The notes under the pieces were generated by a model. It saw only the letters and a list, made by a program, of their open reading frames with translations. It made no database searches and was not told the DNA's origin. Below are positions 316 through 48,048 of a stretch of 48,049 nucleotides of DNA, piece by piece; position 1 is the stretch's first letter, and each line of letters begins with the position of its first letter. Source of the stretch: a virus; IMG/VR virus record IMGVR_UViG_3300010885_020780, positions 1 through 48,049 of that record; one strand, 5' to 3'. The position numbers and the translations under genes are program-made.

Positions 316-666
316 ATGGGACTTGTAAACAAACAATACAAAGACCTTATTGGTGATGCTTATAAGAATTATGGACAGAAAATTATATCTGAAGGTTATC
401 AATATTTAGTTGCAATAGGATGGCCTAGTACACAAGAAGAATTTATCAACAAAATCAAAACAGATAACGAATTTGCTAAAAGGTGGGATATTACAATTGA
501 AACAAAAGAGTTGAGTGAAGACGAAAGAATAAACCTTCTTCACGTCAAACACGGAAATAAAGGTCATCATATAGAAGCAGGATTTAATATGTTAGATGAG
601 TTTGATATTCCAACCAAAATAATAAGAGCAACATACAAAAACAAAACAATAGAGAGTTATGAATAA
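316..666 (+). pseudogene. Chimeric remnant of a duplicated thymidylate synthase
   Basis: 116 residues assembled from separated parts of thymidylate synthase. Residues about 13-58 repeat the internal insert of the next gene almost exactly ([17 protein letters not shown], then [15 protein letters not shown]). The rest (KELSEDERINLL ... LDEFDIPTKI) is a diverged copy of the segment following the catalytic Cys (RELSYDQRFEIF ... LDELNIPTRA in the downstream half-gene). The N-terminal folate and nucleotide motifs and the PPCH catalytic motif are missing, so it cannot be an active enzyme. It overlaps the start of the next gene by 8 bases. It is either a decayed duplicate or a small protein made by deletion. 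Confidence 0.6.
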
Positions 667-1150
667 ATTAGATTTACATTACCAAGCACTTCTTCAAGAC
701 ATTCTTGACAACGGAGTAGAGAAAAAAGACAGAACAGGTACAGGAACAATCTCAGTATTCGGTAGACAAATACGTCACAATATGAAAGATGGTTTCCCTT
801 TACTTACTACAAAGAAGATGCCATTCAAAACAATCGTAACAGAACTTCTTTGGTTCTTACGAGGTGATACAAATATTAAGTATTTGGTTGATAATGGATG
901 TAATATTTGGAATGGTGATGCTTATAAGAATTATGGACAGAAAATTATATCTGAAGGTTATCAAAATTTAGTTGCGATAGGATGGCCTAGTACACAAGAA
1001 GAATTCATCAACAAAATCAAAACAGATGATGAGTTTGCTAAGAAGTGGGGTGAATTAGGGCCTGTGTATGGGGCTGGTTGGCGTAATTGGAACGGCAAAT
1101 CAGACGAAAAACTTTACGAAGATTATTTGAAAAAAGTTAAAGAAAAGTAG
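659..1150 (+). CDS. thyA: Thymidylate synthase, N-terminal fragment of split gene
   Basis: Thymidylate synthase methylates dUMP to dTMP using methylenetetrahydrofolate. This 163-residue product holds only the N-terminal half: phosphate-binding loop DRTGTGT (about residues 24-30), [19 protein letters not shown] and the [12 protein letters not shown] motif. After WNGK the homology stops and an unrelated tail ([16 protein letters not shown]) runs to the stop. The missing half, with the catalytic Cys, is at 2151-2858, and a homing endonuclease gene lies between. Activity would need the two polypeptides to associate, or RNA splicing that I cannot demonstrate. The insert GDAYKNYGQ...KKWG is also present in the duplicate at 316-666. 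Confidence 0.85.
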
Positions 1151-1198
1151 TATTTTTCCATTTATTACCATATTTATATATAGTAAACAATGGTAATT

Positions 1199-1891
1199 AT
1201 GAACTACAAAAAAATACACGACAACCTTATTGAGAGAGGAAAAAATAGAAAATTAGAAGGATATGTTGAAAAACATCACATTATACCAAAATGTATGAAT
1301 GGAACTAACGAACCAAATAATTTAGTGGAATTAACTGCTAGAGAACATTTTTTAATACATTGGTTATTACACGAAATGTATCCCGATAATACTGATTTGA
1401 AATATGCTTTTTGGTCTATGTGCCGTAATTCAGATAACCAACAGAGATATAAACCATCATCAAGGGTGTATGAATATGCTAAACACAAAATGTTAGAAGT
1501 GTGGATAAAATTTAAACCATCTGATAATCAGATAAATTCCATTAAAGAAAGTTTAACAGGTACTAAATGGTATCATAAACTTGATGGAAGAAATTTAAGA
1601 GCCTTTCCTCATGACCCTAAAATAATTGAAGAAGGGTGGTTACAAGGTAGGTTTGGTGGTAAATCAATATCAAACAAAGCTAACGAAGATAAAGAAAAAA
1701 AGTATGAAGGAAAGAAATTACCATCAACCTCAAACAAAAGGTGTTCAATAGACGGTGTCGAATTTGAATCAGCTAAAGCTGCTGCGGATTTTCTTAATAT
1801 GAATGAGTTTTCTATTAGATGGATATTACAAGGTAGAGGTCGTTCACAAAAACATAAAGAAAAGTATAAAAATTGGTATTATATAAATTAA
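1199..1891 (+). CDS. HNH homing endonuclease with NUMOD1-like tail
   Basis: Site-specific DNA endonuclease that spreads itself by cutting alleles lacking it. The HNH core is near the N-terminus: YVEKHHIIPKC, then NLVELTAREHFLIHWLL, with the paired His of the active site. A C-terminal NUMOD1-like DNA-binding segment (SIDGVEFESAKAAADFLN ... IRWILQG) follows. I chose ATG 1199 (MNYKKIHDNL), as usual for the family; an in-frame ATG lies 9 bases upstream. It sits inside the split thymidylate synthase gene, a conserved target typical of such elements. A similar tail ends the GIY-YIG protein at 2915-3748. Confidence 0.88.
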   Translation: MNYKKIHDNLIERGKNRKLEGYVEKHHIIPKCMNGTNEPNNLVELTAREHFLIHWLLHEMYPDNTDLKYAFWSMCRNSDNQQRYKPSSRVYEYAKHKMLEVWIKFKPSDNQINSIKESLTGTKWYHKLDGRNLRAFPHDPKIIEEGWLQGRFGGKSISNKANEDKEKKYEGKKLPSTSNKRCSIDGVEFESAKAAADFLNMNEFSIRWILQGRGRSQKHKEKYKNWYYIN

Positions 1892-1903
1892 AAAAGAAAA
1901 ATT

Positions 1904-2140
1904 ATGGAAAATTACAAAGCGGATTATTACAATCCAGAAACATTTGAAAAATCAGAAATTGAAACTAAAATCCCTGTTGATTTAGTTAGACAAATACGTA
2001 GAGACTTAGAAATTATACAAGGTTATCTCGTAACACCTACATTAATTAATCCTGATGATAAGGATTCTGTTGTGTTTGGTATTATGGATATGAATGACAA
2101 AACAATGAAGTATAAAGTAACAATTTCACCAAACAATTAA
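1904..2140 (+). CDS. Hypothetical protein between split thyA halves
   Basis: 78 residues beginning MENYKADYYNPETFEKSEI, with LVRQIRRDLEIIQGYLV in the middle. No family recognised. It lies 12 bases after the HNH gene and 10 bases before the second thymidylate synthase half, so it belongs to the material inserted between the halves, or travelled with it. Weak Bacteroidota-style A-rich leader before the ATG. Confidence 0.55.
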   Translation: MENYKADYYNPETFEKSEIETKIPVDLVRQIRRDLEIIQGYLVTPTLINPDDKDSVVFGIMDMNDKTMKYKVTISPNN

Positions 2141-2150
2141 ATTTCCGTTT

Positions 2151-2858
2151 ATGAAGTATACTCACGAAGATGGGACTCCATTCTCAAAAGAAGAGTTCTT
2201 AGAAAAATTACGAACAGATAAAGAGTTTAATGATGAGTTTGGTAATAAAGGAATAGACCAAATCACAAACCTAATCAACGACCTTAAAACAAATCCTGAT
2301 AGTAGACGTTTGATGGTGAACGCTTGGAATGTTGGAGAATTAGACCAAATGGTTCTTCCACCTTGTCATTATGGATTTCAAGTTTATACAAGAGAGTTGA
2401 GTTATGACCAAAGATTTGAAATTTTCATTTTAAAAAATGAAAGAAAGTTTGATTGGACTCCAGATAAAAGGATAACATCTGATGTGTTAGATGAATTGAA
2501 TATCCCAACCAGAGCAATCTCTTTAATGTTTAATATGAGGTCAAATGATGTTCCATTAGGTCTTCCATTTAATATATCATCTTATGGTTTATTATTAGAA
2601 ATTATTGGGAAAATGGTTAATATGATACCTGACGAATTAATTACTAATTTAGGTGATGCTCATATCTATAAAAACCAAGTAGATGGTGTTAAAGAACAAT
2701 TAACAAGGGAACCATTTGAATTACCTAAATTAGTTATGTCTAACCAAATTAATTTTAATGAAAGTGTCGATGAATTTTTGAATAGTTGTTTAATGACTGA
2801 TTTTATTCTTGAAAATTATCAATCACATTCAACCATTAAAATGCCATTATCTAATTAG
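2151..2858 (+). CDS. thyA: Thymidylate synthase, C-terminal catalytic fragment
   Basis: Carries the second half of thymidylate synthase: the phosphate-binding arginines NPDSRR, the catalytic cysteine in LPPCHYGFQVY, the RSNDVPLGLPFN nucleotide motif and GDAHIYKNQV. All core active-site residues of the C-terminal half are visible. Its N-terminus (EDGTPFSKEEFLEKLRTDKEF) is not continuous with the end of the first fragment. Instead it repeats the EEF-type insert already present there, so the break point is marked by a duplicated module. Homology to the normal enzyme resumes at KGIDQITNLINDLK. If it associates with the 659-1150 product, a functional enzyme is plausible. Confidence 0.85.
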   Translation: MKYTHEDGTPFSKEEFLEKLRTDKEFNDEFGNKGIDQITNLINDLKTNPDSRRLMVNAWNVGELDQMVLPPCHYGFQVYTRELSYDQRFEIFILKNERKFDWTPDKRITSDVLDELNIPTRAISLMFNMRSNDVPLGLPFNISSYGLLLEIIGKMVNMIPDELITNLGDAHIYKNQVDGVKEQLTREPFELPKLVMSNQINFNESVDEFLNSCLMTDFILENYQSHSTIKMPLSN

Positions 2859-22467: not shown

Positions 22468-22905
22468 CTACATATTTTCAATTAAAACAAATCCGATAAG
22501 ACCTTCAATGTATTTTATAACTTCATCTTCAGTAATAGAACTAATTGGTTTAAATTCTATTTCATTTTCAGTTCTAAATGGAATAAATTGTAAATCTTCT
22601 AATAATCCTCTGTTATTTAATTCAATTCTGTTTCTGTCTACCGTTGGGTCTAAAATAACATTAAATTTATCCATCAGTTTTTTTCTAAAATCATCATAAT
22701 GGTCAGGATGAAATAAAACTTCAAGGTCCGGATGAACAATAATAGTATCGGCACTACTTCTTAAAGATGAATGTTGAATTTTATTTGAAATTAAATTTAT
22801 CTTTTGAAGGAGAGTTTTATTCCATTCTCGTTGTGCGTGAGGTGTCGGTTCTTCAACTCCCATCCATCCTCTTAAATCCCATTCTTCAATATGTGAATTT
22901 TCCAT
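22468..22905 (-). CDS. Hypothetical protein
   Basis: 145 residues, with RGWMGVEEPTPHAQREWNKT near the start and DTIIVHPDLEVLFHPDHYDD in the middle. The GxxxPTPHAQREWN segment reads like a phage protein but I cannot name it. Cotranscribed with its neighbours and the lipoprotein gene. Confidence 0.55.
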   Translation of the reverse strand: MENSHIEEWDLRGWMGVEEPTPHAQREWNKTLLQKINLISNKIQHSSLRSSADTIIVHPDLEVLFHPDHYDDFRKKLMDKFNVILDPTVDRNRIELNNRGLLEDLQFIPFRTENEIEFKPISSITEDEVIKYIEGLIGFVLIENM

Positions 22906-33483: not shown

Positions 33484-34080
33484 TTACCATGCACGACAAC
33501 TCCAATAACGGGGTTTCCATCTTGGTCCCGGATTATCACAATTATGTCTAGCTCTAAAGGATTTACGTCTTGCGGGGTCATTCTTTTTAATTGTCATTCT
33601 TTTACCTTTAGCGGATGTACCACCAAAACCAAAATTAACCTTAACAACTTTACCCTTGTCATTTTTAACATATACCTTGGACTTCTTCACATCACCCTGC
33701 ATAACTTTACCAAGTTGAACCTTTCGTCCTTGATATTCGGCTTCAGTTAGTAAGTCACCAACAACAAAGTTGGTTTCCTCAACTGAACCGTATTCATCTT
33801 CATATAATGTTTCATTCTTTGGTTTAATACCCTTCTTCTTCATGTTGATGGCAATTGCGGCTTGTTGAGCAGGACTTGAGGCCTCATTTGTCTCTTCATC
33901 ATAAGATTCATTCTTAACACAGTTTGGATATTTTTTTCCAAACATTGTCTTCATTCCTTTTTTAGTATAACCTTTCCAGCAGGCTTCGGTCATTTCCTTT
34001 TCACTTGTTTCTTGCTCGGTAAGAACTCGTTTGATTAATCTAATCAAATCACCTTCAGTAAGTCTAACAATATTCCCCAT
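33484..34080 (-). CDS. Tagged multi-module protein (VRLTE tag, YWSC end)
   Basis: 198 residues. The tag MGNIVRLTEGDLIRLIKRVL, then TEQ, is followed by ACWKGYTKKGMKTMFGKK, PNCVKNE, QQAAIAINMKKKGIKP, LLTEAEYQGRKV, KKSKVYVKNDKGKVVKVNFG, and finally DPARRKSFRARHNC with PRYWSCRAW. These segments look like separate conserved phage modules strung together (recollection of similar phage proteins). The last two are shared with 7625-8188. Three [LI]TE sites. GTATTTAT 16 bases upstream. Confidence 0.7.
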   Translation of the reverse strand: MGNIVRLTEGDLIRLIKRVLTEQETSEKEMTEACWKGYTKKGMKTMFGKKYPNCVKNESYDEETNEASSPAQQAAIAINMKKKGIKPKNETLYEDEYGSVEETNFVVGDLLTEAEYQGRKVQLGKVMQGDVKKSKVYVKNDKGKVVKVNFGFGGTSAKGKRMTIKKNDPARRKSFRARHNCDNPGPRWKPRYWSCRAW

Positions 34081-40056: not shown

Positions 40057-40488
40057 TTAAATATACTGACTTAACATCATCCTAAATAGTAAATCTATTG
40101 CATCCGAGGGTAATTCTTCGTATTTGGGGTAATATGTCATAATTCCTCCATTATCCTTATAAACAATAACTTTAACATTATCTTTATGTAATCCTTCTAT
40201 TTGGTGTTTGTCTCCATCTTCTTCTTTAAATCGAATTGGAGGTTGTCGTATTATTTCAAGACTAAAATAATTACCATCATTTATTTGATTAGATTGGTCT
40301 TTGATATAATTAATCTTATCTTCATCTGTAAAATATTTCTCCACTGCATCGTAGTCACCCACCATTCTAAATGTATTATCTATCCCAACAGTATTAATCA
40401 TGTTCTTTATAACCTTATCCATTCTGTCTTCAGTTATTACCCCACCCATTATCTCGTGTATTCTTTCTATGTTCTCTTGTAAATTCAT
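40057..40488 (-). CDS. Tagged protein (MNLQENI tag)
   Basis: 143 residues, MNLQENIERIHEIMGGVITE, then DRMDKVIKNMINTVGIDNTF. Paralog of the next gene along most of its length (MVGDYDAVEKYFTDEDKINY against MVGNIDLIEPYLKEVDKTNY). The tag ends in ITED. Three bases after the paralog. Unknown function. Confidence 0.72.
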   Translation of the reverse strand: MNLQENIERIHEIMGGVITEDRMDKVIKNMINTVGIDNTFRMVGDYDAVEKYFTDEDKINYIKDQSNQINDGNYFSLEIIRQPPIRFKEEDGDKHQIEGLHKDNVKVIVYKDNGGIMTYYPKYEELPSDAIDLLFRMMLSQYI

Positions 40489-40491
40489 GTC

Positions 40492-40911
40492 TTACTTTCT
40501 AACTAAAATTCTAAATATTTCATCAACAATTTGTGATGGTAAACTCTCATATACAACTCTATTGTCACCCACATTATGACCACGATAGTAAATATCAATA
40601 TACGCTCTGTCCCTACCTAAATAACCAATTTGTTTGTGGTCATTATTAACTTCGTCAAAGAAAATTGGTTCTTCTCCTATCTCCCTTAAACTAACACCAC
40701 CTCTACCTAATTCAGCAACTTTATCTTTAATGTAATTTGTTTTATCAACCTCTTTTAAATATGGCTCAATCAAATCAATATTTCCCACCATTTTAATGGT
40801 AGTAGGAATCCCTAAATCATCAATCATTTTCTTTATTAAATCCGTATCTTTATCCTCGGTAATAATCCCCATCATTGATTGGATTCTATATATGTTCTCT
40901 TGTAAGTTCAT
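40492..40911 (-). CDS. Tagged protein (MNLQENI tag), paralog of previous
   Basis: 139 residues from MNLQENIYRIQSMMGIITED. A longer in-frame reading to 41013 crosses a terminator and the upstream gene. Body as in 40057-40488: DLIKKMIDDLGIPTTIKMVG and RVVYESLPSQIVDEIFRIL. ATATTTAT 4 bases before the ATG. Confidence 0.72.
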   Translation of the reverse strand: MNLQENIYRIQSMMGIITEDKDTDLIKKMIDDLGIPTTIKMVGNIDLIEPYLKEVDKTNYIKDKVAELGRGGVSLREIGEEPIFFDEVNNDHKQIGYLGRDRAYIDIYYRGHNVGDNRVVYESLPSQIVDEIFRILVRK

Positions 40912-44657: not shown

Positions 44658-45014
44658 ATGAAGTATATTATTACAGAGAGTCGATTAAAAGATGTGGTTT
44701 CAAAATACTTGGATAGTATCAATTGGAGGGTTTTAGAGTCAAGTGATGAGATATTCCCTTTTGAAGTTTATGAACATTCATCAGATAAGGGCCCAACTTT
44801 TGTTGTTAGAGCCAATACCCATAAATATGGTGTGACTAATGTTTTATTAATTTTAGATTCATTTCAGAATAAACTTGAAGATATGTTTGGTGAATCTACC
44901 GTGGGTGAAGGACCCGATGACGAACCAAACACATTAGTAATGGATTGGTTCAATAAACACTTTGATATTCAGGTTGAGGATTATTCATTCCTAAATAACA
45001 ATTATTTTAACTAA
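44658..45014 (+). CDS. Tagged protein (MKYIITES) with WF tail
   Basis: 118 residues, MKYIITESRLKDVVSKYLDS, then INWRVLES and KLEDMFGESTVGEGPDDEPN followed by MDWFNKHFDIQVEDYS. Close relative of the next gene and of 16945, 27043 and others. Unknown function; a main representative of the tagged paralog family. Confidence 0.72.
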   Translation: MKYIITESRLKDVVSKYLDSINWRVLESSDEIFPFEVYEHSSDKGPTFVVRANTHKYGVTNVLLILDSFQNKLEDMFGESTVGEGPDDEPNTLVMDWFNKHFDIQVEDYSFLNNNYFN

Positions 45015-45016
45015 TC

Positions 45017-45391
45017 ATGAAATATATTATAACAGAGAATAGATTGAACAACATAATCTTTAAGTATCTTAACGATATTGATTGGGAGATTGCCGATTAT
45101 AATGATTGGGAGTTCGGACAAATGACAAGATTATTCTTTAAAAGCGAATCTCAATTTCCTGAAGACACAATATTTGAGGCATATAACAATGAAGATTGTA
45201 CCGATGTTAGTATTGAAGATGATGTTGAATGTCCGGAAGAACGAGTATTATTAGTTAATAGACCATTCTATAACCAAATTATGGGACTATTTGGGTTAAA
45301 TCATCAAAATACCCACTCTATATTGATTAGTTGGTATGAAAGTTACACTAACGAAACTATTGATGACAAGTCATTGGGTTTTATCGATTAA
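45017..45391 (+). CDS. Tagged protein (MKYIITEN), paralog of previous
   Basis: 124 residues, MKYIITENRLNNIIFKYLND, then IDWEIADYNDWEFGQMTRLF and IMGLFGLNHQNTHSILISWY. Two bases after the preceding paralog, so a tandem duplication. Unknown function. Confidence 0.72.
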   Translation: MKYIITENRLNNIIFKYLNDIDWEIADYNDWEFGQMTRLFFKSESQFPEDTIFEAYNNEDCTDVSIEDDVECPEERVLLVNRPFYNQIMGLFGLNHQNTHSILISWYESYTNETIDDKSLGFID

Positions 45392-45426: not shown

Positions 45427-45831
45427 TTACCTGTTGTAAGGTCTAAACCTTGCTGGATTTGCCTTTATTGCCGACTTGGGAAATCTTAAACCAACCCCTT
45501 GTTGTCTTGCATTTTTTAACGTTCTTGAGTATTCTGTTAGTTCCTCATTTCCCATATTATCAATAGATTTTACAAATTTATAACATTTCTCACTTACCCC
45601 ACCTTTTTCGTGGTCTGTTATTGATATCGTTACTTTGTCATAATTTATTTTAATGTCCGGATGATGGTTTTGTGTTTCAGCAATTTTTGCCACTTTATTA
45701 ACAAAATCAATAGATTCATTAAAATCTTTAAATGTAAAAGTTTTTTCTAATTTTTGATTTGAATTACCCCAACCTTTGGATTCATTAACTGTTTCCCTTA
45801 ATACTTTTCTTATGTGTTCTTGTAAGTTCAT
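45427..45831 (-). CDS. Tagged pterin-4a-carbinolamine dehydratase
   Basis: 134 residues. The N-terminal tag MNLQEHIRKVLRETVNESKG is followed by a PCD/DCoH domain: FTFKDFNESIDFVNKVAKIA, then ETQNHHPDIKINYDKVTISI and TDHEKGGVSEKCYKF. The catalytic HHP and the later D-H pattern are intact. PCD recycles oxidised pterin cofactors. Here it carries a basic C-terminal extension (RTLKNARQQGVGLRFPKSA) besides the tag. A metabolic enzyme with the same leader as neighbouring unrelated proteins is the clearest sign that the leader is a transferable signal. Confidence 0.85.
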   Translation of the reverse strand: MNLQEHIRKVLRETVNESKGWGNSNQKLEKTFTFKDFNESIDFVNKVAKIAETQNHHPDIKINYDKVTISITDHEKGGVSEKCYKFVKSIDNMGNEELTEYSRTLKNARQQGVGLRFPKSAIKANPARFRPYNR

Positions 45832-45835
45832 TATT

Positions 45836-45868
45836 TTATTTATAATTTTGTTTGTCTTGTAAGTTCAT
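45836..45868 (-). other. Orphan tag start (MNLQDKQNYK)
   Basis: ATGAACTTACAAGACAAACA reads MNLQDKQNYK then TAA. The ATG overlaps the TGA of the metallopeptidase gene (ATGA). The 5' bases match the 5' ends of the tagged genes, so this is a stranded partial tag just upstream of the complete tagged gene at 45831. Confidence 0.7.
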
Positions 45869-46467
45869 ATTGTATTAACCTTAATCATATTATAAAATAT
45901 CTCAGATATTTCATCAAAACTACTAACGTTTTTTGATTTAATTGTATTTTTTGTTTGTGTTATTAACTTTTCAAAATGATTTAATGGAACGTTTTTATAT
46001 ACCGATAACGTTTTTCTATTTGGTACACTTATAAACCCTAATTTAAGAAATTCCCTCACTTTTCTATTTGCAAATTCGTCAGCAATTATTTCAATTTGTT
46101 TCATCGCAATTGAGGCATCTTTAACATCTGTTTCATCCAAATAAAATTCATACATTTTTTTATCACCATATTTTTTATATTGATACTGATGGGCAATCTC
46201 ATGGAAAATTATAAATAAAAAATCAGGTAATTCTTGTTTAAATATTACTTCATTAAATAAAACCCCATTGTGTAACGCCAACCCTAAAGCCGGATATTTA
46301 AACATCGTAACTTCAATTTTTTTACAATTTGAATCCTTTATAAATGATTCAATATTACCAATAAAACTTTCGGTTTCTGGATATGTTTTCATAATTTGTG
46401 TTAGGAATGACTCAATACCTTGAGTTTCTTCCCTTAATACTTTTCTTATGTGTTCTTGTAAGTTCAT
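45865..46467 (-). CDS. Tagged zinc metallopeptidase
   Basis: 200 residues from MNLQEHIRKVLREETQGIES. The tag (residues 1-14, ending LREE) is nearly identical to that of the dehydratase next door, though the bodies are unrelated. The catalytic site LFIIFHEIAHQYQYKKYG (HExxH) is followed by MKQIEIIADEFANRK with the third ligand. ATG 46467 is chosen because it begins the tag. A third HExxH protein in this window, and the one clearly tagged. Confidence 0.78.
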   Translation of the reverse strand: MNLQEHIRKVLREETQGIESFLTQIMKTYPETESFIGNIESFIKDSNCKKIEVTMFKYPALGLALHNGVLFNEVIFKQELPDFLFIIFHEIAHQYQYKKYGDKKMYEFYLDETDVKDASIAMKQIEIIADEFANRKVREFLKLGFISVPNRKTLSVYKNVPLNHFEKLITQTKNTIKSKNVSSFDEISEIFYNMIKVNTI

Positions 46468-46468
46468 A

Positions 46469-47242
46469 TTATTTTTCTTCCGGTAATTTTGTATCTTTGA
46501 TAAATTTGTTATGTGAAGCTTTATATGATTTTTGAGTTTCATCATTAACATTTTTTGTATATTGCCAATTCCAATATAAATCTTTATTTGGTTTAAATCC
46601 GTAAAACTCATGAACCTGCTTTTGTATTTCAGTTACATTCTCACCATTCCAATTCTGTCCCACACAAATAAATCCGGTCTCAATATCTTTAACAAGATTT
46701 GATTCCCCTAATGTATTATGTCTGTTCTCAATCCAAGTTAATCTCTCAATTAAGTTCTGATAGAACATATTGGTTTGTCCCCATCTTACCGAACTAAAGA
46801 ATATAACCGCGTCAGATTCAAATAATTCTTTGGAAATCTTCCATAACTCATCCTTTGGATTGTTAAAACTCGCCCAACACCTGTGGTCCCCTGATGGGTT
46901 TTTTTTCTTATCTTTGAGCATCGCCTTTAATACACCACAACTATTTCCATCTTTTCTTGATACATTCCCTTCACATGGAACAATATTAAGTTCAGAGACA
47001 TCAATTAATACTGAAGTATTTTTTAATTCATCGTTGAGATACATTGCAATTGCCTTTGATTTTGGAATGTCAATATTTTTATCATCCCAATTAAATCTAT
47101 TGGAACAACTTAAGATTAAAACTTTTTTCTTATCTTTGAGGATGTCCAATGTTTTTTTAATTGATTTCCAAGCGTCCGATTGAACCATTTCTTCGGCAAT
47201 CATCATCTCTCTTATTCTTTGTATATTTTCCTGTAGGTTCAT
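46469..47242 (-). CDS. Tagged flavodoxin-fold NAD(P)H-dependent reductase-like protein
   Basis: 257 residues. Tag MNLQENIQRIREMMIAEEM. The body fits the FMN_red/flavodoxin-like fold: KKVLILSCSNRFNWDDKN (first strand and FMN phosphate loop), SKAIAMYLNDEL, VLIDVSELNIVPCEGN, then LFESDAVIFFSSVRWGQTNM and NLIERLTWIENRHN (second FMN loop). Two Cys (NIVPCEG, DGNSCGVLK) may matter in catalysis or metal binding. A redox enzyme with a phage tag. One base precedes the next gene. Confidence 0.75.
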   Translation of the reverse strand: MNLQENIQRIREMMIAEEMVQSDAWKSIKKTLDILKDKKKVLILSCSNRFNWDDKNIDIPKSKAIAMYLNDELKNTSVLIDVSELNIVPCEGNVSRKDGNSCGVLKAMLKDKKKNPSGDHRCWASFNNPKDELWKISKELFESDAVIFFSSVRWGQTNMFYQNLIERLTWIENRHNTLGESNLVKDIETGFICVGQNWNGENVTEIQKQVHEFYGFKPNKDLYWNWQYTKNVNDETQKSYKASHNKFIKDTKLPEEK

Positions 47243-47739
47243 TCTAAATTAAGTATTTCTTGTTTAATCTTTAAGGTTTCCTGTTTTAGTAAATCAAAAT
47301 ACTTATATAACTCATCATTTCTATCGTATAATCTTTCTATCTCCTCTGTATAGTCCTCATCAGGGTGTGTGTTATATAAAAGTTCAAACACTCTATCATC
47401 ATTTTTGTCATGCTCTCTTCTATAATTGTTATACTCAATCAATTTGGATATATCAATATTTAAATTCTTATCTTTGACGTAAGATATTAGTTTTTCAACT
47501 AGTGAGTCCGATGTAAAACTATTTTCATCATCTAAAAACGCCTCAACCGAACCAATCTGAAATTCAAATTTATCTATGTTATTTATAACATTGTCAACAC
47601 TTGTGTTTATTGTTATATCATTGTCCTTTGCAGACTTGTTTAACCCCTTCTCTATTTGTTTTACAGTGTATGACGATTTAACCTCAGAGATAATCCCCAT
47701 CACTTCCTGTATCCTATTTATATTCTCTTGTAAGTTCAT
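47239..47739 (-). CDS. Tagged protein (MNLQENI tag)
   Basis: 166 residues, MNLQENINRIQEVMGIISEV, tag ending in ISE. Body acidic and helical, with coiled-coil-like C-terminus (YFDLLKQETLKIKQEILNLE). ATGA-type 4-base overlap with the next gene. No family recognised. Confidence 0.7.
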   Translation of the reverse strand: MNLQENINRIQEVMGIISEVKSSYTVKQIEKGLNKSAKDNDITINTSVDNVINNIDKFEFQIGSVEAFLDDENSFTSDSLVEKLISYVKDKNLNIDISKLIEYNNYRREHDKNDDRVFELLYNTHPDEDYTEEIERLYDRNDELYKYFDLLKQETLKIKQEILNLE

Positions 47740-47748
47740 GTTAATTTG

Positions 47749-48048
47749 TTATTGATTATCCCTTAAATTATTAAGATAAGATTCCATCTCATCTTTTTCA
47801 TCGTATTTAAAGGTTTTTAATACTTTAATGTTTTTAGTTGAGATTGATTTTCCACCAGCACCTTTATTTACATATATCCTATCCGATTCCAAATGATGTA
47901 TTGGTGTTGCTTGAAAATAATATTTAAGTGGTAAATAAGCCATCGGTATCATTATTTCAAATACGGCATAATCCGGCATCTCAATCTCCGATTCAACATC
48001 AACACCCATCATCGATTGTATCCTATTTATATTCTCCTGTAAGTTCAT
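47749..48048 (-). CDS. Tagged protein (MNLQENI tag) at window edge
   Basis: 99 residues, MNLQENINRIQSMMGVDVES. The start codon ends at 48048, so the gene is complete but its upstream region is outside the window. Beta-rich middle (FEIMIPMAYLPLKYYFQATP). Nucleotide 5' end almost identical to 47739 and 40911. Unknown function. Confidence 0.72.
   Translation of the reverse strand: MNLQENINRIQSMMGVDVESEIEMPDYAVFEIMIPMAYLPLKYYFQATPIHHLESDRIYVNKGAGGKSISTKNIKVLKTFKYDEKDEMESYLNNLRDNQ

Follow-up and report, generated by a model that had tools for sequence, protein, structure and literature searches.

Interchangeable N-terminal leaders on enzymes of a T4-like phage lineage as probable capsid-targeting propeptides

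Introduction

Three neighbouring minus-strand genes (45427-45831, 45865-46467 and 46469-47242) of the window, i.e. the whole 48,049-base virus fragment analysed here, open with related leaders of the form MNLQE[H/N]I..., raising the question of what such a leader does at the N-terminus of an enzyme. A previous, sequence-only reading of this DNA regarded the leader as a possible packaging tag and concluded that, if so, the phage would inject active enzymes and could alter host metabolism before phage transcription begins.

Both capsid-targeting propeptides and their processing by gp21 have precedents in T4, and phiKZ-like phages also process packaged proteins in a glutamate-directed manner. For the T4 internal protein IPIII, residues 1-10 suffice for targeting to the prohead core, and foreign enzymes fused to them are packaged and delivered; residues 4 and 7 are important for targeting and residues 8 and 10 for processing, while gp21 cuts after L/I-X-E (PMC9026906). 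IPI starts with MKTFKEFTSTTTPVSTITE/A, and IPII and IPIII start with MKTYQEFIAE/A (the slash denotes the cut, here placed according to the literature rule). T4 Alt, an ADP-ribosyltransferase, is packaged in the head and injected (PMC5512222). A description of an enlarged system with multiple leaders, or of tagged dehydratase, zincin or reductase cargo, was not found in the literature searched, which is weak evidence of its absence.

Here we propose, with a probability of roughly 0.8, that the leaders act as capsid-targeting propeptides like those of the T4 internal proteins and are cut by a gp21-type protease, and that the enzymes are ejected with the DNA. If true, injected effectors among the many uncharacterised genes of these phages would be recognisable by their leader from sequence alone. 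The T4 internal-protein principle, so far a matter of a few anti-restriction proteins and a single ADP-ribosyltransferase, would be widened to modular enzyme cargo, and the cargo that jumbo phages deliver with their DNA would become a directly testable question.

Leaders on three enzymes

The first gene (45427-45831, minus strand) encodes a pterin-4a-carbinolamine dehydratase of 134 residues, as the sequence-only reading had stated: the protein matches PF01329 (Pterin_4a) with E=2.7e-23 and, above the cut-off, NCBIfam NF002017 (4a-hydroxytetrahydrobiopterin dehydratase), and the motif E-x3-HHP-x5-Y-x9-H can be read in the sequence as ETQNHHPDIKINYDKVTISITDH. The active-site residues are conserved. 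The leader, residues 1-17 (MNLQEHIRKVLRETVNE; 45781-45831, minus strand), has predicted cuts after LRE13 and/or VNE17, the N-terminus being MNLQEHIRKVLRE/TVNESKGW. The same core is found in five distinct upstream contexts, each of which ends in glutamate (VNE, MNE, MFE). Relatives in the PDB align from residues 12-26 onward, with the best from 25; the closest solved dehydratases align from 18-26 only and two others from 12-14, and the Pfam and NCBIfam profiles align partly over the leader. In these alignments the leader fills in part the place of the usual N-terminal segment and does not form a clean extra extension, leaving the comparison with homologues outside the phage partly ambiguous for this enzyme. 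Just upstream of the dehydratase start (45831, minus strand) lies the remnant of a leader start (ATGAACTTACAAGAC..., MNLQDKQNYK-stop), which suggests that the leader may have been duplicated.

The second gene (45865-46467, minus strand) encodes a zincin-like metallopeptidase of 200 residues. The mechanically called ORF start at 46611 overlaps the next gene; the likely start is 46467. Residues H89, E90, H93 and E126 are invariant across 15 homologues and the sequence reads HEIAHQ, which upholds the assignment as an HExxH peptidase; HExxH together with a distal glutamate is the hallmark of the gluzincin type. Neither Pfam nor NCBIfam yielded a match. A profile search returned a weak match to proabylysin (4jiu, E=0.003), which was also the best match in Foldseek, albeit at a non-significant E=1.6. 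The structural model has a pLDDT of 87.9, and leader residues 1-10 are its low-confidence part (56). The leader comprises residues 1-13, MNLQEHIRKVLRE/E (N-terminus MNLQEHIRKVLRE/ETQGI; 46429-46467, minus strand), and its 39 nucleotides are identical to those of the dehydratase leader, while the two genes are unrelated.

The third gene (46469-47242, minus strand) encodes a protein of 257 residues that has 216 phage relatives as well as cellular homologues. The phage version matched nothing in Pfam or NCBIfam. Foldseek comparison of its model, whose pLDDT is only 68, with the PDB retrieved FMN reductases, azoreductases and quinone reductases (E 3.7e-6, probability 1.00), and on the strength of this model a flavodoxin-like alpha/beta fold is predicted, in agreement with the reductase proposed previously. 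Its leader, residues 1-17, MNLQENIQRIREMMIAE/E (N-terminus MNLQENIQRIREMMIAE/EMVQ; 47192-47242, minus strand), represents a separate subtype, which has only MNLQE.I in common with the leaders of the dehydratase and the zincin. Hence, the description "nearly the same leader" is accurate for the latter two proteins and does not extend to the flavoprotein. The leader ends, LRE13 in the dehydratase and the zincin and IAE17 in the flavoprotein, are kept across homologues.

The flavoprotein permits a closer look at the junction. Among 55 unique phage flavoproteins, which carry several kinds of leader, E17 is invariant (55/55), P3 is only I, L or V, and P2 varies freely (S, A, L, Q, N, H, Y). An invariant glutamate, I/L/V at P3 and a free P2 correspond to the pattern expected from gp21 specificity. 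From E17 to the body motif there are 27 residues in every homologue in which the site pattern was found. Homologues were also detected at 31 cellular loci (L343-L373), in Sulfurovum and relatives, Patescibacteria, Woesearchaeota and others, and these mostly match the phage protein only from about residue 26-35 on. The presence of the same N-terminus in bacterial homologues would speak against a packaging tag; the leader is absent from all 29 cellular ORFs, so that the packaging reading withstands this comparison. The body motif is preceded by a median of 29 residues in the cellular proteins, by 44 in the phage precursor and by 27 in the phage protein after the predicted cut. On this measure, the start of the cellular flavoproteins roughly coincides with the predicted mature N-terminus of the phage protein.

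Recurrence and exchange of leaders

The same leader class is present on at least 7 genes of the window. Four of them, all on the minus strand and with the leader recognised in the sequence, lie beyond the trio: 40057-40488 (MNLQENIERIHEIMGGVITE/D), 40492-40911 (MNLQENIYRIQSMMGIITE/D), 47239-47739 (MNLQENINRIQEVMGIISE/V) and 47749-48048 (MNLQENINRIQSMMGVDVE). The last two, whose functions are unassigned, are the fourth and fifth consecutive leader-bearing genes; the fifth is located at the contig edge and its leader ends without a clean [I/L]xE site. Other leader types within the window are MKYIITES, VRLTEGDL and ELNKIIKKVLRES, and two genes with a second-class leader adjoin the cluster on the plus strand (44658-45391; MKYIITE/S at 44658-45014 and MKYIITE/N at 45017-45391). 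The motif [IL]TE occurs within the first 30 residues of 13 of 51 window proteins, as compared to 1.8 +/- 1.3 after shuffling; in two relatives of ~300 kb the corresponding numbers are 28 versus 7.1 and 32 versus 6.3. Given this excess and the leaders on at least 7 window genes, the recurrence of the leader is not due to chance. The more general [I/L]xE is short and contained in ~33% of shuffled N-termini. Therefore, a site in a single protein means little, and the argument rests on conserved placement, exchange of leaders and module junctions.

Exchange is most apparent for the zincin, whose homologues in other phages carry at least three non-homologous leader classes. Swapped leaders include MNLQETIRRILRE-E, MKTIRLTESDLVKLIKRVINE-E, MKYILTESQYNLLLE-Q, MKIILTENQYKSIILE-E, MSIKNTIRRILKE-E and others, and in the leader-bearing homologues the junction [I/L]xE stands directly before the conserved body. 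No leader can be recognised in a few distant homologues. By pattern (regex) matching, which makes the counts approximate, 732 distinct leader-bearing sequences fall into 259 body clusters, 97 of which include the MNLQE class. Judged from these sequence comparisons, the leader is a portable module that is exchanged between unrelated proteins.

The class-A leader departs from the genome in its codon usage. Since these leaders have common codon choices that differ from those of the genome, they are in part recent copies of one another, and shared DNA ancestry explains part of their similarity. The codon skew, the 39-nucleotide identity of the dehydratase and zincin leaders and the remnant upstream of the dehydratase start would also suit a leader that is mainly a translation-start and recombination cassette, i.e. 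a good initiation region that was spread by duplication and whose peptide has no targeting role. We consider this improbable, however, since the [I/L]xE ending is the sole common feature of non-homologous leaders, and since the glutamate is invariant while the preceding residue varies. The proteins with internal modules described below also speak against it. A comparison of k-mers upstream of tagged genes, long structural-block genes and other genes in two relatives revealed no clear shared late-promoter signal.

Junctions inside proteins

The dehydratase ends in a basic C-terminal module, YSRTLKNARQQGVGLRFPKSAIKANPARFRPYNR (45430-45531, minus strand), which follows ELTE and recurs on several otherwise different proteins. 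The basic module of ~34 residues, YARTLKNARQQGxGLRFPKSAIKANPxRFRPYNR, is mostly C-terminal and also found at L006, L054, L125, L127, L131, L132, L137, L138 and L177; perhaps it associates with DNA in the head. A polyprotein-like gene of the window (33484-34080, minus strand) reads MGNIVRLTEGDLIRLIKRVLTE/QETSEKEMTE/ACWKGYTKKGMKTMFGKKYPNCVK... and carries the CWKGY module after [LIM][TK]E. This module, CWKGYTQKGMKTMFGKRYPNCVK, is present on many leader-bearing proteins and also in L235, L137, L163 and L231.

At the borders of these modules the same signature returns. The YARTLKN module is preceded by E at P1 and L/M/I at P3 in 11/11 distinct contexts, and the CWKGY module follows [LIM][TK]E in 19/19 (allowing one linking residue before CW). 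The GLHDTSW body, which sits on three kinds of leader and also inside longer proteins, comes after E in 13/13 distinct contexts, with I or L at P3 in 9/13. The sequences behind these junction counts are from related phages and are not phylogenetically independent, so that a product probability computed naively over the junction glutamates is not relied on. Some proteins of relatives consist of multiple modules (L132, L137); the L137 protein begins with a leader, contains both basic modules and has another leader, TNLQESIRRIIREE, in its interior. Such an architecture would make sense if a protease cuts the proteins into pieces. Initiation is irrelevant inside proteins, and translation-start effects thus provide no explanation for internal leaders and E-preceded modules.

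Tagged and untagged genes

In two large relatives, conservative leader patterns match ~37 of 380 genes (G001) and ~30 of 339 genes (G013), often in consecutive runs. Among the hallmark genes of G001, no leader was found on recombinase, helicase, primase, ribonucleotide reductase and thymidylate synthase, nor on the TerL, portal, sheath, tube and baseplate genes. One tagged protein of a relative contains an ADP-ribosyltransferase domain (ART-PolyVal, E=2.2e-12) behind a leader that is nearly that of the window zincin, and further tagged domains in relatives comprise HD, nucleotidyltransferase, P-loop, VanY-type peptidase and ParB-like domains, several of these matches being weak. The view of the leaders as tags on metabolic enzymes was accordingly too narrow: the tag is general, and metabolic enzymes are one part of its cargo. 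At L336 (G013:C1:242631-249855) ~10 consecutive same-strand genes carry leaders, with the MNLQE and LIRxILKE types mixed, and most of them have no assigned function.

Head genes of the lineage

The window belongs to a ~300 kb T4-like lineage of probable Bacteroidetes phages. Homologues of 42 of its 79 predicted genes, i.e. about half, are present in the 308,574-base relative G001, and the flavoprotein is 93% identical to its counterpart there. The fragment itself contains no head genes and hence neither gp21 nor gp23. In all 18 large relatives examined (~230-322 kb), a prohead protease of the T4 gp21 type (Peptidase_S77) and a Gp23 capsid protein are encoded, both above the cut-off. All gp23 proteins of the relatives listed except one have the N-terminal sequence ENQAS[FHY]LINE/[AS]; LINE/[AS] fits the T4 rule L/I-X-E and is therefore regarded as a gp21-type site. 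Amphipathic N-terminal helices may have several targeting roles, and leaders of this kind could direct proteins elsewhere, e.g. to the membrane, the tail or an intracellular compartment, with [I/L]xE being incidental. Such a destination is very unlikely, however, as the gp21 site is the conserved feature across unrelated leaders and as the relatives encode gp21 along with a capsid protein that contains such a site.

Capsid targeting is the best explanation for the leaders, because they match T4 propeptides in length, hydrophobic spacing and the terminal [I/L]xE. The spacing L3, I7 and I10 in the MNLQENI subtype appears, by analogy, to match that of the T4 leaders. According to this explanation, the short amphipathic helix formed by the leader at the N-terminus would attach to the scaffold core of the prohead and thereby bring the enzyme into its interior. 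As the head matures, the gp21-type prohead protease of the phage would cleave at the leader end, behind the glutamate of [I/L]-x-E. Cleavage would free the mature enzyme among the packaged DNA, together with which it would be ejected into the host.

Alternatively, the leader might bind the prohead core while the cargo has a function in head assembly or is broken down in the prohead, and no active enzyme would reach the host. Degradation of the scaffold protein gp22 by T4 gp21 (T4 annotation) and the presence of several short, functionally unassigned cargo proteins would agree with such a fate. Conservation of the active-site residues in the dehydratase and the zincin argues against it, as do the tagged ADP-ribosyltransferases, which match a known injected class, and we rate this alternative as unlikely. 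The reading of the leader as a packaging tag is well backed by the gp21 and gp23 genes of every relative examined, the [I/L]xE junctions, the swapping of leaders, the polyprotein-like cargo, the ADP-ribosyltransferases that carry a tag and the replication and tail genes that do not. On comparative grounds this part of the sequence-only reading is retained, while enzyme activity in the host before phage transcription and altered host metabolism go beyond the evidence; any role of the dehydratase, zincin and reductase in the host is speculative. Whether the heads of this widespread jumbo-phage lineage carry, by way of several interchangeable leaders, tens of interchangeable payload proteins per genome (metabolic enzymes, proteases, ADP-ribosyltransferases and polyproteins cut by the prohead protease) that are delivered with the DNA is, in our estimate, an even bet.

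Comparison with known packaged proteins

As in IPI, IPII and IPIII of T4 (CTS, gp21-cut), otherwise different proteins have in common an N-terminal propeptide of ~10-20 residues ending in I/L-x-E, and a gp21-family protease and gp23 are likewise encoded in the lineage. In contrast, the T4 internal proteins are a handful, whereas ~30-37 leader genes per genome are recognised here by pattern; there are several non-homologous leader classes, the cargo includes enzymes (dehydratase, zincin, reductase), and further internal sites are found along the cargo. T4 Alt finds its parallel in the ADP-ribosyltransferase domains among the leader-bearing proteins of relatives, but none of the three window enzymes is an ADP-ribosyltransferase.

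Polyvalent proteins of phages and conjugative elements (Iyer et al. 2017, PMC5512222) resemble the present system in being an injected payload with ADP-ribosyltransferase, ParB-like and metallopeptidase domains. They are multi-domain proteins, combining many disparate domains in one polypeptide, whereas mostly separate small proteins with one tag each are seen here, and each window protein has a single catalytic domain. Processing is predicted to be carried out here by the prohead protease, and there by a built-in metallopeptidase. The ejection proteins of phiKZ and SPN3US are alike in that several packaged proteins undergo glutamate-directed processing by a prohead protease. However, the phiKZ/SPN3US propeptides are cut at S/A-x-E or A-x-E instead of the T4-like I/L-x-E, and those of SPN3US are mostly longer, several exceeding 100 residues (PMC5694885), as compared to roughly 7-25 in the leaders described here.

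Host and further features of the fragment

In G001, a bS21 gene (PF01165) is located on the opposite strand between the portal and protease genes. This placement agrees with the arrangement that the consulted portions of Chen et al. 2022 (PMC9723584) describe for bS21-encoding freshwater jumbo phages infecting Bacteroidetes, which makes Bacteroidetes the likely host; the same portions do not mention the leaders reported here. Cultured relatives were sought: the flavoprotein was matched by no phage record, and among phage records the dehydratase had only a weak match to one uncultured record. Flavobacterium phage immuto, a Bacteroidetes phage in culture whose capsid protein is related, shows only a few leader-like N-termini. 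Virion proteomics for the lineage were not found in the literature searched.

Two further loci of the window deserve mention. The 145-residue protein encoded at 22468-22905 (minus strand) resembles a stretch of the gp23 proteins of the lineage (27-29% over ~145 residues in G001 and G013); it has no Pfam match and is possibly a paralogue of a capsid-protein fragment. A search of the window against Rfam gave zero matches, and thus no intron at the gathering threshold at 659-2858 (plus strand), where the thymidylate synthase gene is apparently divided in two by an HNH-like ORF (1190-1891). The thymidylate synthase of G001 is split in a similar manner, but the intervening ORF is a different one.
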